NCBI RefSeq assembly: GCF_000378205.1
Contig: NZ_KB899412.1
Span: 1 to 64,000, forward strand
Reading direction: 5' to 3'
Source: Sediminispirochaeta bajacaliforniensis DSM 16054
GTDB taxonomy: Bacteria > Spirochaetota > Spirochaetia > DSM-16054 > Sediminispirochaetaceae
DNA: 64,000 nt
Below the pieces are notes generated by a model, which was not told the DNA's origin, did no database searches, and worked only from the letters and a program-made list of their open reading frames with translations. Shown piece by piece: positions 56,737 through 63,202 of the stretch; the stretch's first letter is position 1; every line of letters starts with the position of its first letter. Both the position numbers and the translations under genes were made by a program.

Positions 56737-57375
56737 TTATTGTCGCTCCTTCATCATGCTGGGAAGTACGTTATATATGCCTGCAAGAAGGCCTGCTAAG
56801 CTCTGTTCTTTTGGTACGGCATGAATGAAGAAGTTGTTATTGTCACGATAGCAACAGAAGTGGAGAAGATCCTCAATCCCTTCGCTACTCTCAAGAAGGG
56901 CTTTCATCATCGGTTCCAATTTGGGATTATCCCAGAGTAGGATGAATTGCCTGCCTTCGATTTCGAACTCCTCGCGTTTTAATGTTTCGATCCCCGCGAT
57001 ATCGACCCGCATCTTCGGAAAGTAACGTTTGGCAATGATATGTGCCTCCCCCTTTAGTTGCCGGCTTGTAAAGATGTGGAGATAGAAACGATCGTATCGC
57101 GTAATAAGAAAGGAAAAGGGGAGGTACAACAGCGAATGGCGGGGAAGGAGCGTGAAGGTCCCCTTTGCCTGACTAAAAGGCTCTTCAAGCTGGTAGGTGA
57201 AGTTGTGACCAAGTACGCCGCCGATATTTACATATGTCGTATCCTTCGGCTGTAACAGCTTTTCACACACCTCACCGATCATAACGCTTAACTGTTTGTT
57301 TCGCTTTCTGCCGTGTAGGTATCCCATGCTCGTTGCAAAGGCCAGGGCTATGAGAAGATAGATGTAGGAGTTCAT
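56737..57375 (-). CDS. Membrane-anchored protein of unknown function, third gene of the ArsA-like module
   Basis: 212 residues. One N-terminal hydrophobic segment (YIYLLIALAFATSMGYLHG, residues 4-22) could be an anchor or signal; the rest is soluble and mixed alpha/beta (YVNIGGVLGHNFTYQLEEPF, LPRHSLLYLPFSFLITRYDRFYLHIF). I recognise no domain. It overlaps the ATPase gene by ATGA, so the two are translationally coupled. Its role may be to tie the ATPase to the membrane or to be its target; that is inference from linkage only. Confidence 0.7.
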   Translation of the reverse strand: MNSYIYLLIALAFATSMGYLHGRKRNKQLSVMIGEVCEKLLQPKDTTYVNIGGVLGHNFTYQLEEPFSQAKGTFTLLPRHSLLYLPFSFLITRYDRFYLHIFTSRQLKGEAHIIAKRYFPKMRVDIAGIETLKREEFEIEGRQFILLWDNPKLEPMMKALLESSEGIEDLLHFCCYRDNNNFFIHAVPKEQSLAGLLAGIYNVLPSMMKERQ

Positions 57376-58301
57376 TGCGGATTTTCCTCCCGCTGAATAT
57401 GGACTATGAGGTCGTCGATATAGATTTGACCAAGCTGCTGCCTGGAGGTGATTCCTCCGGCGATTGAGATGAATTTAAAAATGGGAAATTCGGCGAAGGT
57501 TCGCTCTATCGCCTCGTGAGGATCATCCAGTGAAAGTACCTTATTCAGACAAAGACTGTTGAGGGTGATATGAAGCCTTCCCAGCTCGGTTCGTATCCGT
57601 TCCGATTCGGCAATACTCAGTTTGTCGTCGTTGATGACAACCGACACATAACTCTCCTCGGTAAAAAGACGATAAAGCTTTTCAAGTCGCGAGGAAATGG
57701 CTCCCAGCTGCAGTGAGACCTTATCGTCTTCTTTTTTACGTGCCCCCTTTAGGCTTGCCGCATCGGGGTTGAGTCTGGTGAGGGTCTGCCGCTTTTTGAG
57801 TATTTTTTCCCGCATGGCACTTAACTCTCCAACCCATAATCGTGTGATGGACGGCATAGCGAGAAAGCGCAGGGTGAGGGCCGTGGGCGGCGTATCGAAG
57901 ACGATATAATCGTACTTATCATGCCATCGGTCGTAGAGGCTCTCTATGGCCCAAAGTACGGCATACTCTTCGGTTCCGGGAGAGTATTTCAGGATATTGA
58001 TATAGGAATCAAGATTGATGGTAAGGTTGTAGTTGTAATTTGAAATGATCTCGTCTCGACTGCTTTTCAGGTAGTGCTGGACCCAATACTGAAGGTCGAT
58101 CTCTATGGCGTCGAGCCCCTCAATAACCGAGCTCCTCTTATCGGAAAGTTCCATCTCATAGATATCACCGAGGTTATGTGCGGGGTCAAGACTGATAATG
58201 AGAACACGATAGCCGTTCAGGGCGAGTCGATAGGCAGCGGTCGAAGAGATTGTAGATTTTCCGACCCCTCCCTTTCCCAGAAAAAAAAGCATCCGCTTCA
58301 T
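57372..58301 (-). CDS. ArsA/Get3-family ATPase
   Basis: 309 residues, one ATPase domain (eukaryotic and archaeal Get3 type, not the double ArsA). Deviant Walker A GKGGVGKST (9-17), switch I DPAHNLGD (39-46), switch II region DTPPTALTLRFLAMP near 137-151, and an ending typical of the family (SIAGGITSRQQLGQIY). No Cys pair for zinc dimerisation and no arsenic-binding Cys are visible. Get3-like proteins carry tail-anchored membrane proteins or power anion export. It is the middle gene of a tight trio with two unknown proteins and no arsenic genes. Confidence 0.88.
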   Translation of the reverse strand: MKRMLFFLGKGGVGKSTISSTAAYRLALNGYRVLIISLDPAHNLGDIYEMELSDKRSSVIEGLDAIEIDLQYWVQHYLKSSRDEIISNYNYNLTINLDSYINILKYSPGTEEYAVLWAIESLYDRWHDKYDYIVFDTPPTALTLRFLAMPSITRLWVGELSAMREKILKKRQTLTRLNPDAASLKGARKKEDDKVSLQLGAISSRLEKLYRLFTEESYVSVVINDDKLSIAESERIRTELGRLHITLNSLCLNKVLSLDDPHEAIERTFAEFPIFKFISIAGGITSRQQLGQIYIDDLIVHIQREENPQ

Positions 58302-58591
58302 CAGTCGATCTCCAGCATGCCGAGAAGGTTTCCAAGAGGATCCTGTGCAAGATCGGCTCTGGAGATCATTAGCTTGATCTCTTCTTCCATATAAGGCATC
58401 AATTCGAAAGCCATGGCTGTGGGTGGAGTGGGCAGGCCCACAAAGCTACCGAAAAGCAGCATGACGAAGATGTTTTCCAGCTCCTTCAATTCAAATTCGA
58501 GCATGCCGGTTGCCTTGTCCCGCTGGACTTGACTCGCGACTCTCCATATCTGCCGAAGGAGACGAACAAAGCGGCCGAGTAATGACTTCAT
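58301..58591 (-). CDS. Small protein of unknown function, first gene of the ArsA-like module
   Basis: 96 residues from the ATG at 58591 (AGAGG upstream; a start at 58618 is possible). A basic helical N-terminus (MKSLLGRFVRLLRQIWRVASQVQ) is followed by a central hydrophobic stretch (NIFVMLLFGSFVGLPTPPTAMAFELMPYM) and an acidic C-terminus (ADLAQDPLGNLLGMLEID). It shares one base with the ATPase start (TGATG overlap). It may be a partner that binds the ATPase. Not recognised as any named family. Confidence 0.7.
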   Translation of the reverse strand: MKSLLGRFVRLLRQIWRVASQVQRDKATGMLEFELKELENIFVMLLFGSFVGLPTPPTAMAFELMPYMEEEIKLMISRADLAQDPLGNLLGMLEID

Positions 58592-58619
58592 GGGGAAACC
58601 TCTTGCTCTTGAAACCATT

Positions 58620-58652
58620 CGGCCTGTGGGTCCTGAAAAACCGCACAGGCCG
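58620..58652. terminator. Hairpin between cstA and the ArsA-like module
   Basis: CGGCCTGTG pairs perfectly with CACAGGCCG across a 15-base loop. It lies after the cstA stop and before the small gene. The U run is weak on the minus strand, so it could be an imperfect terminator or a processing site. Confidence 0.45.
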
Positions 58653-58681
58653 ATAAGGATGAAAAAATGATAAGACGGGCT

Positions 58682-60370
58682 TTAGGCCTTTACTGCTTTA
58701 TCTTTTCCGAAATTCTTAAAAAAGGTCACAACCATAGCGATGTTGATAATGATCATAATGATATTCATGAGCCCGACCAAGGTCCCTGTGATAAGATTCT
58801 TGATGTTCGCAGGATCCGCAAAATGGGCGGGGACAATTGCAATCTGATACCAAATGATGGCGGCGGTGACGGTTATCCAAAGAAAAACAGCAGGAATAAA
58901 TACCAGATTGGTATATTTCTCATTCAGCTCCTTTTTCACCCACATTGCCACGGTCAGCATGACAATGGAAGCAATGAGCTGGTTTGCGCCGGAAAATGCG
59001 GGCCAAAGGATGGTGTAGTTTCCGCTCCAGGCAAGGCCGATACCGAAGAATGCAACGACAAGGGAACCTACCCATTTGTTGTTGAAAAACTTATAAAGGC
59101 CGGGACGCTTATCCTTTGCAGGAAGCGAAAGCTCGCTGACAATGTATCGTCCCAGGCGATTTGTTGTATCAAGGGTAGTGAGAGCGAAAGAACTGACCCA
59201 GATAGCAGCGAAGAGCTTCATAAATTTTGCCGTGAAAAAGGGCATTGCAGATGCGACCATTGCCCCGTAGCTTGCCGTAAAGCGTGCCAAGGGCGGGGTG
59301 GCGAGGACCTTTCCTTCGCCGAGGGCCTGCACACCGAAAGCGGCAATGGCAATAACGGAAATCGTGGCAAGGAAGCCTTCGGTCAGCATTGCACCGTATC
59401 CGACAAAGAGGCCGTCTTTCTCATCACGAAGCTGCTTGCTGCTCGTGCCCGAAGCAATGAGTGCGTGAAAACCGGAGAGGGCACCGCAGGCGATAACAAG
59501 AGGAACGGTAGGCCAAAAAGGTGAGGGTTTTCCTCCGATAACCTTTGCGCTGAAACTTGTGAAAACAGGCACGGAATCGAAACCTTTTGCCGCCAAAATA
59601 GCGCCGATTGCTCCGGTAATCAGCCCGAAATAGAGGAGAAAACTGTTCAGGTAGTCTCTGGGCTGAAGAAGAATATTCACCGGCAGGGAACTGGCGATGA
59701 TGATGTAGATAAAAATAACCAAAAACCAGACATCCTTACTTGCCGAAATCCCCACATGCTTACCAATGACAAAGGAAGCAATGAGCAATACGATGCCGAT
59801 AAGGGTGCTTACGATCATCGGCAATTTTGTCCGATACATCAGAATTCCGAGCACAATGGCGGAGGCGCAAAAAAGAAAAAAGGTTGATGCTACAGCCCCA
59901 TCTCCTGCAAACTGTCCTGCTACGATATCACCGAACGCCGCGACAACAAGGAAGCATAGGAAAAGGACAAACCAACCGAAAGATTTTCCTGCCTTTTTGC
60001 CGATCAGTTCCTGAGCAACGAACTGTACCGAGCGTCCGTCATACCTAACAGAGGCAGTCAGCGCAAGATAGTCATGAATAGCACCAATAAAGATGTTCCC
60101 AAACCATATCCACAGAAGGCCGGGAAGCCATCCCCAGGCAATGGCAATTGCGGGACCAACGATAGGCCCTGCTCCTGCGATGGATGCAAAGTGATGGCCG
60201 AAAAGGACATATTTACTTGTTGGAATATAGTCCACGCCATCTGAGAGCCTTTGCGAAGGGGCAGCAGGTGCTTCTTGAGATTTGAGCAACTTTGTTTGAA
60301 GCCCTTTACCGAATGAGAAATAGAAAATCAGGTAGATCGCCAAGGCAACTACAAGAACCAGAGTTGTCAT
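58682..60370 (-). CDS. cstA: CstA-family transporter (peptide/pyruvate type carbon-starvation protein)
   Basis: 562 residues with about 16 membrane segments. CstA marks: VDYIPTSKYVLFGHHFASIAGAGPIVGPAIA near residue 45, RYDGRSVQFVAQELIGKKAG, PTVPLVIACGALSGFHALIASGTSSKQL and LTTLDTTNRLGRYIVSEL. E. coli relatives take up peptides (CstA) or pyruvate (BtsT). At 562 residues it is of the shorter clostridial/spirochaete type. A strong AGGAGGAG site precedes the ATG. No LytS/LytT-type sensor adjoins. Confidence 0.93.
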   Translation of the reverse strand: MTTLVLVVALAIYLIFYFSFGKGLQTKLLKSQEAPAAPSQRLSDGVDYIPTSKYVLFGHHFASIAGAGPIVGPAIAIAWGWLPGLLWIWFGNIFIGAIHDYLALTASVRYDGRSVQFVAQELIGKKAGKSFGWFVLFLCFLVVAAFGDIVAGQFAGDGAVASTFFLFCASAIVLGILMYRTKLPMIVSTLIGIVLLIASFVIGKHVGISASKDVWFLVIFIYIIIASSLPVNILLQPRDYLNSFLLYFGLITGAIGAILAAKGFDSVPVFTSFSAKVIGGKPSPFWPTVPLVIACGALSGFHALIASGTSSKQLRDEKDGLFVGYGAMLTEGFLATISVIAIAAFGVQALGEGKVLATPPLARFTASYGAMVASAMPFFTAKFMKLFAAIWVSSFALTTLDTTNRLGRYIVSELSLPAKDKRPGLYKFFNNKWVGSLVVAFFGIGLAWSGNYTILWPAFSGANQLIASIVMLTVAMWVKKELNEKYTNLVFIPAVFLWITVTAAIIWYQIAIVPAHFADPANIKNLITGTLVGLMNIIMIIINIAMVVTFFKNFGKDKAVKA

Positions 60371-60453: not shown

Positions 60454-61605
60454 TCACTCTATAGGGAATTTCCTTTTAAAAAAACGAGGTGAATCCCCCC
60501 ATGCATTGAGCCCGACGCTTCTTCCCGTTGATGCAATGCGCCCCGCAAGGCAGGCCTCACATGCCTCTTTTCGTTCGTTCATGCACGGCTTGTCTTTGTA
60601 GAGCCTGTAGGCTTTCCGTACGCGAAGGGGAGTAATATTGGGCATGGTTACGTTTGCCCCGAATCGAAGGCCCCGTTCTCTTCCGTCCGGCACAAGGGCC
60701 TGAAGAGCGGTGGTTGCGGCAATATTTGCATCGGGCAATGCAAGCCGTGTCGCCGCAATCATGAGAAGCGAAAGGTGCAGCAACGCTTCCTTCTCCATCA
60801 TTCCCTGCACTGCCATGGGTGTATCCGGATGGGTAATATACGGCCCCATGCCGATCATATCAACATCGATATCCCGGAAAAAGAGGATATCGCGTGCGAG
60901 CATATCGATGCTCTGACCGGGAATGCCGATCATCACCCCGGTACCAACCTGAAAACCTGCTTTCCGCAGGTCGTGCAAAGCCTGGAGACGGGTTTCAAAA
61001 CGTTGCTCAGGCGGATGGATGGCAGAAAAGAGCTCGGGGTTGCTGGTTTCGATTCTCAAAAGATATCGATGTGCTCCCGCATTGTAGAATCGGCGATAGG
61101 TCTCAAGGGTTTGCTCCCCCACGCTTAGGGTAATGCCCACTCCGTCCGGAAGTTCCGTGCTGCGAGAACGTTCCTTTATGGTTTTGACGATCCTTTCCAC
61201 AAGACCGATGAAGGCTTCGTCTCTCCTCTCTCCGGACTGGAGTACCACCGATCCGTAGCCCCTTTCCGCACACCAGAGAGCCGATTCGACGATCTCCTCC
61301 TCATCGAGAAGGTAGCGACTGGAGACATGGGTATTACTTCTGCGTATGCCGCAGTAGCGACAATCCTGGGTACAGATATTCGAGAATTCCACTATACCTC
61401 GGTAATAGACGAGGTTCCCGACCTCCCGTTCCATCACCTCCGTTGCCGTAGATCGAACCTGCTCCACCAGGGCCTTTTCACGATAAGGGATAGAGAGAAT
61501 AGCCCGAAGCGCTTTTTCGCTGGGTATGGCTCCATGACGAAGCGTATGTATGTATTCTTCTTGTGCGAAATCCGGGGCTGTGACGTCAATCGATGTGTGC
61601 ATCAT
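60454..61605 (-). CDS. hydE: [FeFe]-hydrogenase maturase, radical SAM protein
   Basis: 383 residues. The radical-SAM motif CTQDCRYC (Cys78, 82, 85) sits in IVEFSNICTQDCRYCGIR, and the BATS domain follows (YLLRIETSNPELFSAIHPP, GTGVMIGIPGQSIDMLARDI, MGPYITHPDTPMA). HydE helps build the dithiolate bridge of the H cluster. A C-terminal Cys cluster (CMNERKEACEACLAG) may hold the second Fe-S site. It follows the TM1266-like regulator by 6 bases. HydF and HydG are not in the window. Confidence 0.93.
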   Translation of the reverse strand: MMHTSIDVTAPDFAQEEYIHTLRHGAIPSEKALRAILSIPYREKALVEQVRSTATEVMEREVGNLVYYRGIVEFSNICTQDCRYCGIRRSNTHVSSRYLLDEEEIVESALWCAERGYGSVVLQSGERRDEAFIGLVERIVKTIKERSRSTELPDGVGITLSVGEQTLETYRRFYNAGAHRYLLRIETSNPELFSAIHPPEQRFETRLQALHDLRKAGFQVGTGVMIGIPGQSIDMLARDILFFRDIDVDMIGMGPYITHPDTPMAVQGMMEKEALLHLSLLMIAATRLALPDANIAATTALQALVPDGRERGLRFGANVTMPNITPLRVRKAYRLYKDKPCMNERKEACEACLAGRIASTGRSVGLNAWGDSPRFFKRKFPIE

Positions 61606-61611
61606 ACCGCG

Positions 61612-61860
61612 TTACTTTTTCGCCAGACTCGATTTCACCGAAACACCCTCTATGGCACCCAGTTTTCCGGTGAGGCTGCCAAGAGCATCCGTGGTTGTGT
61701 CGACGATCAGGGTGATGACCGATAGCCCCTTTTCCCGATACGGAACACCGGTTCTGCAGACAATCTGATCTCCGAAATCGGTTAAAAGCTCCTGAACCTT
61801 TCCTGCTGTCTCGTTTCTGTTTTCGATGATGATACCGATAAAGCCGAGCCGTTTTTCCAT
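61612..61860 (-). CDS. TM1266-type iron-only hydrogenase system putative regulator (ACT-like)
   Basis: 82 residues from the ATG at 61860, chosen because GGAGGGAGG lies 8-16 bases upstream; the frame remains open further up but without family sequence. RLGFIGIIIENRNETAGKVQELL and GVPYREKGLSVITLIVDTT(T)DALGSLTGKLGAIEGVSVK match the small ACT-fold proteins found in hydrogenase-maturation clusters. Probably a regulator that senses metal or a cofactor. Directly upstream of hydE. Confidence 0.85.
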   Translation of the reverse strand: MEKRLGFIGIIIENRNETAGKVQELLTDFGDQIVCRTGVPYREKGLSVITLIVDTTTDALGSLTGKLGAIEGVSVKSSLAKK

Positions 61861-62041
61861 CCGAGTGCCTCCCTCCTGCAACAGGGAAGGAAGGCGCAGG
61901 CAGATCGTATCTATAAGCGTCTCCCTTGGTTTCGGTCTTACCCTTGCCGCAGGTTGATATTTCAGTACATACTTTACCGTGTGAATAATCTTTTGTATAG
62001 ATTGAATACCGCTTCCGAAAAGGATGGTAAAGGAGTCGGCC

Positions 62042-63202
62042 ATGGATGAAAGAACAGAAATAGCGGGAGAACCCTCTTTCGGACTGATGAATAGCTTGGT
62101 AGAACTATTTGTTACCGAACGAGGGGCCCAGATGGCGCCGGTACATTTCTTTCCAAAGGATGCTAACCCGGTTCAGCCCTATCACCTGAGCCCCTGGCAG
62201 GGAGAATCTCGCGAGCAGACGGTAGATCAGCCTGCGGTGCTTCGTCCCCTTCGGGGGGATTTTTTCTGCATGCCTTTTGGGGACAACGATGAGCTGCCGG
62301 ATGGGATCGGTGAGCATCATCCCCCTCACGGGGAAAGCGCAGGCTCAAAATGGAACCTTGTGTCCCGACAGGAGTCTGCCGATGGACGGTCCACCTTGGA
62401 GCTTGAGCTTAGCACTTCCGTCCGACCAGGCTCGATTCGGGCGACGTGGCAGCTGACGGGAGGCGACAGTTGTATCTACACCAGGCACCGCATCGCCGGG
62501 AACAGGGGGCCTGTCACACTCGGCCACCATGCCACCCTAACGGGACAAAACGGGCAGCTGCAGATAAAAAGCTCTCCTCTCCTTTTTGGGATGACCAACG
62601 CCTACCAGCCCCCCTTCTGTCATGATCGAGAGTATTATTCCCTTGCTTCCGGTGCCTTCTTTGACGACCTGTCGCATGTCCCGACGATCTGGAAAGATCC
62701 AGCCTTTACCGATTGTTCTCACTTTCCCGCCCGGGAAGGGTTTGTCGACATCCTGCAGCTCTGTCAGCGGCCGAGCGAAGAACCCGGCTGGATGACCGCC
62801 CTCTGCCGTGAGGGGGGCTATCTCTGGTTTTCTTTCAAGAATCTTCGGCTTCTTCCCTCCACCGTCATATGGATGGAAAACCGGGGGCGTCACATGGCTC
62901 CCTGGAGCGGCAGGAATGTTTGTATCGGCTTGGAAGATGTGTGCGGTTATCTTGCCCAGGGCCTTGATGCTTCGGCCGCTGATAATCCGCTGAGCCGACG
63001 CGGCCTTGCAACCACCCTTTCCCTTGAGGGAAAAGAGGCGCTTTCTGTTTCCTATATACAAGGGGTGATCCGGCTGTGCGATGGCTTTGATGAAGTCGAT
63101 ACAGTCCTCTTTTCCCCCGAGGGTGCCACCTTTCTTGCAAAATCGGGGAAGCGGCTCTTTTCTCCGGTCCGCTGGCGTTTTTTATTTGGTGAGGATCTTT
63201 GA
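62042..63202 (+). CDS. Conserved-looking protein, possible aldose-1-epimerase-like fold
   Basis: 386 residues from the ATG at 62042. I recognise no named domain. The text has several Trp- and His-rich beta segments (VHFFPKDANPVQPYHLSPW; CMPFGDNDELP; IYTRHRIAGNRGPVTLGHHATL; FSFKNLRLLPSTVIWMENRGRHMAPW; NVCIGLEDVCGYL), much like the carbohydrate-binding DUF4432/aldose-1-epimerase group, where a His, Glu and Trp face sugar. There is no signal peptide. It converges with a LacI-family regulator gene, which fits a sugar role. Function not assigned. Confidence 0.6.
   Translation: MDERTEIAGEPSFGLMNSLVELFVTERGAQMAPVHFFPKDANPVQPYHLSPWQGESREQTVDQPAVLRPLRGDFFCMPFGDNDELPDGIGEHHPPHGESAGSKWNLVSRQESADGRSTLELELSTSVRPGSIRATWQLTGGDSCIYTRHRIAGNRGPVTLGHHATLTGQNGQLQIKSSPLLFGMTNAYQPPFCHDREYYSLASGAFFDDLSHVPTIWKDPAFTDCSHFPAREGFVDILQLCQRPSEEPGWMTALCREGGYLWFSFKNLRLLPSTVIWMENRGRHMAPWSGRNVCIGLEDVCGYLAQGLDASAADNPLSRRGLATTLSLEGKEALSVSYIQGVIRLCDGFDEVDTVLFSPEGATFLAKSGKRLFSPVRWRFLFGEDL

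Follow-up and report, generated by a model that had tools for sequence, protein, structure and literature searches.

Three overlapping genes in the window, the whole 64,000-nucleotide stretch of Sediminispirochaeta bajacaliforniensis DSM 16054 DNA analysed here, make up the accessory part of cstA-cstX-arsA-cstY, a four-gene unit that was already known. It is a solid conclusion that the unit provides a CstA-family carrier with an accessory system of its own. New points are that related loci across many phyla share the linkage to cstX and cstA, that the 212-residue protein of the unit is CstY, which is widespread in bacteria, that CstY has a predicted fold similar to that of the membrane-protein assembly factor CCDC47, and that the ATPase and CstX have moved jointly between CstA lineages. 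CCDC47 is a subunit of the PAT complex of the ER multipass translocon. This translocon is seen as eukaryotic, and here a predicted CCDC47-like fold is found beside a Get3-like ATPase in bacteria. Our leading reading, at less than even confidence, is that this ATP-driven accessory system takes part in the assembly of CstA.

The unit was described by Castillo & Saier (2010; PMC2963123), so the arrangement itself is known and the window provides one more member. That paper describes cstA with cstX (~90 aa) and a single-domain arsA (~330 aa), and reports cstY (~210 aa) from five archaea only. It also proposes that ArsA energises CstA with CstX as a linker, and presents co-evolution of ArsA, CstA and CstX. 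Our literature search found no later paper on CstX or CstY.

Genes of the window

The features of the unit are listed in Table 1. The original prediction had placed the three accessory genes correctly, and its description of the products holds; the genes are on the minus strand and overlap by 1 nt (cstX/arsA) and 4 nt (arsA/cstY). The ATPase is a single-domain member of the ArsA/Get3 family (PF02374, E 6e-49; TIGR00345, 172 bits, cut-off 135) and has one Cys, no CxxC and no arsenic-type Cys. The basic/hydrophobic/acidic character given for the 96-residue protein is borne out: the net charge is +6 in residues 1-30, residues 41-59 are hydrophobic and the remainder carries -9. The membrane anchor of the 212-residue protein is one long helix that opens CstY. 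The two partners had been called unknown, but both are the CstX and CstY of PMC2963123. A module of three genes was also incomplete: cstA, which had been missed, lies upstream on the same strand, separated from cstX by 90 nt.

Table 1. Features of the cst unit in the window
Feature	Position	Strand	Description
cstA	58682..60370	-	562-residue CstA-family carrier, probably the client or partner of the other three products; Pfam PF02554, E 8e-125
RNA hairpin, strong	58619..58653	-	between cstA and cstX; fold z-score -4.15
cstX	58301..58591	-	96 residues; modelled as a helical hairpin and distantly related to NCBI cory-CC-star
arsA-like single-domain ATPase	57372..58301	-	309 residues; PF02374, TIGR00345
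cstY	56737..57375	-	212 residues; N-terminal membrane helix and alpha/beta domain, CCDC47-like predicted fold

Genes for hydE and a TM1266-type hydrogenase regulator (60454-62043, same strand) immediately precede cstA. The immediate neighbours include no ars gene, in line with the earlier observation that arsenic genes are absent nearby. Arsenic resistance was rejected as a function on this ground and because the ATPase belongs to a separate clade.

Linkage to cstA across genomes

We scanned a genome collection with the ATPase as query; the best 80 loci were listed, which is a selection and not a census, and many of them come from metagenome-assembled genomes. Among the 39 closest of the matches listed (L074-L112), cstX and cstA precede the ATPase in all 34 loci with at least 900 nt upstream. 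Represented among these loci are Spirochaetota, Thermodesulfobacteriota, Myxococcota, Synergistota, Calditrichota, Ignavibacteriota, Caldisericota, Thermococcus and Desulfurococcales. Farther out among the matches listed, Bacillota, some Pseudomonadota, one actinomycete and haloarchaea have cstX-arsA-cstA with neither cstY nor cstZ, the latter being a 4-helix-like membrane gene inserted between cstA and cstX at other loci.

Within the spirochaete class (60 genomes, among which G001, of the same genus, is the nearest relative of the window's genome in the set), a CstX-like gene lies directly upstream of every ATPase match with E <1e-50 and an uncut upstream contig. Where at least 900 nt of upstream sequence is present, cstA comes before cstX, or before the inserted cstZ, in 17 of 18 spirochaete loci. 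The linkage that the original prediction proposed to look for thus holds in other spirochaetes and in other phyla. At the single exception (L069, 4934-7850), an NhaC-type Na+/H+ antiporter (PF03553, E 4e-53) precedes cstX-arsA in a genome in which no cstA was found; the Walker A motif there reads GKEGSGKT and the branch is long, which suggests a new or decaying use of the pair.

Two cstA genes are present in the window's genome, and each is accompanied by a separate cstX and arsA. The second module (contig C6; L051, 8362-11765) reads cstA-cstZ-cstX-arsA; its cstZ encodes a multi-helix protein of 149 residues, and there is no cstY.

Several loci carry additional genes. Tandem single-domain ATPases stand behind cstX and cstA in a Pyrobaculum (L148, 5666-8194), which also has a second cstX, and in an Acetobacteraceae genome (L126, 5513-7726); these tandem ATPases are possibly a split heterodimer. 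Downstream of the module at L104 (8414-10137) are two Cys-rich P-loop ATPases with CxxC and an Mrp/NifH-like appearance. At L055 (8423-8707), L056 (5135-5404), L074-L078 and L091, cstY or the ATPase gene is followed by a small gene of DUF59/MIP18 type (PF01883, below cut-off); many relatives have this gene, often encoding a Cys pair, and the window is without it.

Evolution of the unit

Loci with cstY are referred to as Y-type and those with cstZ as Z-type, and each tree was a single run. In the ATPase tree, both types fall in one clade (58 rows, 100/100) with Z nested inside, and the two-domain arsenite ATPases are apart (100/99). The grouping with arsenite pumps that the original prediction had named as evidence against itself is therefore not what is found. 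In the CstA tree, the Y and Z carriers are two clades (100/100 and 100/99), with Z sister to the Bacillota type, and the AU test rejects a tree that unites Y with Z (p 0.00017). Mean identities follow the same division: Z loci are nearer to Y than to Bacillota in 15/15 cases for the ATPase and CstX and in 0/15 for CstA. The discordance of the trees, together with these identities, indicates that the ATPase and CstX moved jointly to another transporter lineage without CstY. This comparison of sequences shows the ATPase and CstX to be one evolutionary unit, mobile between transporters, whereas CstY stays with its own CstA lineage.

CstY occurs in 18 of 151 Thermoproteota genomes, in several of which cstY adjoins cstA with no ATPase within ~1.5 kb. 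Since CstY was left behind in the transfer and can sit beside cstA without an ATPase, it is primarily a partner of CstA. The Get3-like motor with a membrane receptor that had been proposed for the window is partly supported; the membrane work in that proposal fits the CCDC47-like fold of CstY, but the cargo gene cstA was missed, and because CstY tracks the transporter rather than the ATPase, it is not simply an ATPase receptor. CstY-family genes with neither cstA nor an ATPase within 1.5 kb were also seen (L168, 1486-2139; L173, 1477-2112; L180, 1486-2172) and are possibly free-standing members.

A residue of switch I (G or H after DPAHNL) was considered as a marker of the Y and Z types and rejected, as it fails outside spirochaetes.

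CstY and CCDC47

An HMM built from spirochaete CstY proteins only matches the proteins encoded at the corresponding operon position in L081 (Thermococcus MAG, 1e-45) and L100 (Desulfurococcales MAG, 5e-38), which places the window's protein in the archaeal CstY family. Its AlphaFold model, made without templates, has a pLDDT of 94.8 and a pTM of 0.89. A Foldseek search of the PDB gave three matches below E 0.001, all chains of eukaryotic ER translocon structures: 7tm3_4 (E 2.5e-9, TM 0.68), 9i78_4 (1.8e-7) and 6w6l_7 (1.1e-4). When PDB sequences were searched with a fragment of human CCDC47, which scored 462 bits to the deposited chain, 7tm3_4 and 6w6l_7 proved to be CCDC47; 9i78_4 is presumed to be the same protein from the paper on the complex. 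The next-best fold match, which is marginal, is TtfA (E 2.7e-3, TM-score 0.36).

By sequence, the Pfam CCDC47 family (PF07946) is matched by 13 of 23 CstY members, and other families by at most two each. The best match has an E of 1.3e-5 over residues 15-198, and the top member (L095) reaches 24.9 bits against a cut-off of 27.7; no CstY member, and none of 247 genomes, has a PF07946 match above cut-off. The window's own CstY and most archaeal members have no PF07946 match, and a CstY profile found nothing among PDB sequences or in one human CCDC47 fragment.

The similarity of fold between CstY and CCDC47 is thus established at the level of prediction, the sequence evidence for the link is only suggestive, and homology is likely, though not proven. 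A larger claim, which we consider less likely than not, is that CstY is a true prokaryotic CCDC47 homologue and that, across bacteria and archaea, the CstA modules are a transporter-dedicated assembly machine for membrane proteins, in which a Get3-like ATPase is paired with a PAT-like factor. Smalinskaite et al. (2022, Nature; PMC9630114) describe PAT components as absent from prokaryotes.

The ATPase and CstX

The ATPase carries the P-loop, switch I (DPAH) and switch II (DTxPT) motifs of Get3 (alignment A1), and its nearest full-length solved structures are the archaeal single-domain homologues 3zq6 and 3ug6. The CxxC zinc motif is present in 0 of 81 cst-linked ATPases; in Get3 this motif is not universal (PMC10248533). 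In pairwise alignment, the stretch aligned to the Get3 client-binding motif is hydrophilic, with a mean hydropathy of -1.28 versus -0.69 and -0.65 in two archaeal homologues.

The NCBI cory-CC-star model (NF041419) is matched by CstX of all lineages. CstX proteins at the same gene place in Bacillota, Actinomycetota and Pseudomonadota score 124-137 bits, above the cut-off of 80, and the others score below it; the window's CstX (E 5.6e-6, 26.3 bits) ends in LEID rather than Cys-Cys. From these matches, we take the CstX proteins (alignments A3, A6, A8) to be one family, with a Cys-Cys tail in part of it only. CstX is modelled as a long hairpin of helices (pLDDT 89, pTM 0.57), with no match in the PDB by sequence or by fold. 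The Cys-Cys C-terminus is found in Bacillota CstX proteins (L113-L142) and in E. coli YbdD (L193, 3683-3877), two apparently unrelated small partners of CstA with the same ending. YbdD itself was rejected as a partner in the spirochaetes: PF04328 was undetected in 59 of 60 genomes and below cut-off in the remaining one.

Expression and substrate

Strong perfect hairpins occupy the gap between cstA and cstX in 21 of the 39 loci where it is at least 40 nt long, as judged against a background of single-base shuffles and with a perfect-stem scan that misses interrupted stems, including the window's own. In all, 14 hairpins are followed by a T-rich stretch. These terminator-like hairpins suggest that the accessory genes may be made in smaller amounts than the carrier.

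The window's CstA scores below threshold against the model of the E. coli pyruvate/proton symporter CstA. A LytS/LytTR sensor pair lies directly upstream of the cstA module in two relatives (L061, 9639-12082; L065, 3873-6337). The pairs of this kind in E. coli respond to pyruvate and regulate a carrier of the CstA family (PMC5431176, PMC10653868). Judging from the family and these neighbouring sensors, CstA probably carries pyruvate or another small organic acid like it.

Proposed role of the unit

In the assembly reading, CstY would use its membrane helix and CCDC47-like domain to dock on CstA at the membrane, CstX would link the ATPase dimer to this dock, and cycles of ATP hydrolysis would aid the insertion or assembly of the multi-span CstA or the maintenance of its shape. 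The predicted CCDC47-like fold of CstY, the relation of the ATPase to Get3 and the hairpin lead us to favour it. Counted against it are that the CCDC47 link is below the Pfam cut-off in every member and absent for the window's own CstY, that the profile found nothing in the human CCDC47 fragment, that CstY has no ribosome-reaching coiled coil, that the stretch aligned to the Get3 client-binding motif is hydrophilic, and that a single ATPase for each transporter resembles a subunit more than it does a general assembly factor. Many CstA carriers, moreover, function with no such module.

The proposal of PMC2963123, in which the ATPase couples ATP hydrolysis to CstA to give an ATP-driven pump, with CstX as linker and CstY as accessory subunit, is a serious possibility, placed second. 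The published co-evolution is reproduced by our distance correlations (A-C 0.66, A-X 0.79, X-C 0.59), the window's genome has one ATPase per CstA, ArsA-ArsB is a precedent, and a hydrophilic stretch replaces the Get3 client-binding motif; TtfA, the marginal fold match of CstY, is likewise an accessory protein of a transporter, MmpL3. However, E. coli CstA is proton-driven without an ATPase (PMC7730263), a hairpin or terminator that would lower the ATPase relative to the carrier is odd for a fixed stoichiometry, and the CCDC47-like fold is left unexplained.

A role in gating or quality control, in which the module would respond to energy or redox state by switching, protecting or removing CstA and would drive neither transport nor insertion, is improbable: the DUF59-like proteins after cstY in many loci, some with paired Cys, and the Cys-Cys C-terminus of some CstX families fit such a role, but the ATPase and the window's CstX have no conserved Cys and the window has no DUF59-like gene. 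General delivery of tail-anchored or other membrane proteins, with cstA merely the commonest neighbour, is very unlikely, for although the ATPase is closest to archaeal Get3-type structures, cstX-arsA stands without a nearby cstA at L069, L128 and L153, and a few cstY genes are free-standing (L168, L173, L180), cstA linkage is almost invariable throughout the 58-row ATPase clade, with one module per cstA.

The four-gene system is small and genetically tractable, and offers a way to learn what a CCDC47-like fold does and whether Get3/ArsA ATPases act on carriers by assembling or by driving them. Proteins now named hypothetical or cory-CC-star also gain a function-bearing context.

Comparison with known systems

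Like Get3/TRC40, the ATPase has Walker A, switch I and switch II and full-length similarity to archaeal Get3-type structures, but it has no CxxC zinc motif, no hydrophobic client-binding motif and no Get1/Get2. The ArsA-ArsB arsenite pump shares the ATPase family and a carrier beside the ATPase, whereas here the ATPase is single-domain, without metalloid Cys and in a separate clade, there are no ars genes and the carrier is unrelated. E. coli CstA also needs a small partner, YbdD, which ends in Cys-Cys as Bacillota CstX does, but has no ATPase, CstX or CstY, and the YbdD family was not detected in the window's genome. The sensor pairs at L061 and L065 recall the pyruvate-sensing BtsS/BtsR of E. 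coli. TtfA resembles CstY as a single-helix membrane protein serving one transporter, MmpL3, although the fold match is marginal, with a TM-score of only 0.36, and no ATPase is involved.

CstY resembles CCDC47 in its single membrane helix, in the predicted alpha/beta fold that comes after this helix and in having a cytosolic domain. It is much shorter (~212 versus 483 residues), without the lumenal domain and the C-terminal coiled coil that reaches the ribosome, as the chain ends at 212 after the fold; it is tied to one transporter family, and the sequence similarity is below the Pfam cut-off.

The operons of Castillo & Saier are the closest precedent, with a single-domain ArsA homologue of ~300-330 residues, CstX of ~90, CstY of ~210, CstA and no ars genes. 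There CstY was reported from archaea only, whereas here its range takes in spirochaetes along with numerous other phyla of bacteria; a second lineage has CstZ (~150 residues) as its membrane protein instead; and CstY acquires a predicted CCDC47-like fold that was not previously known.
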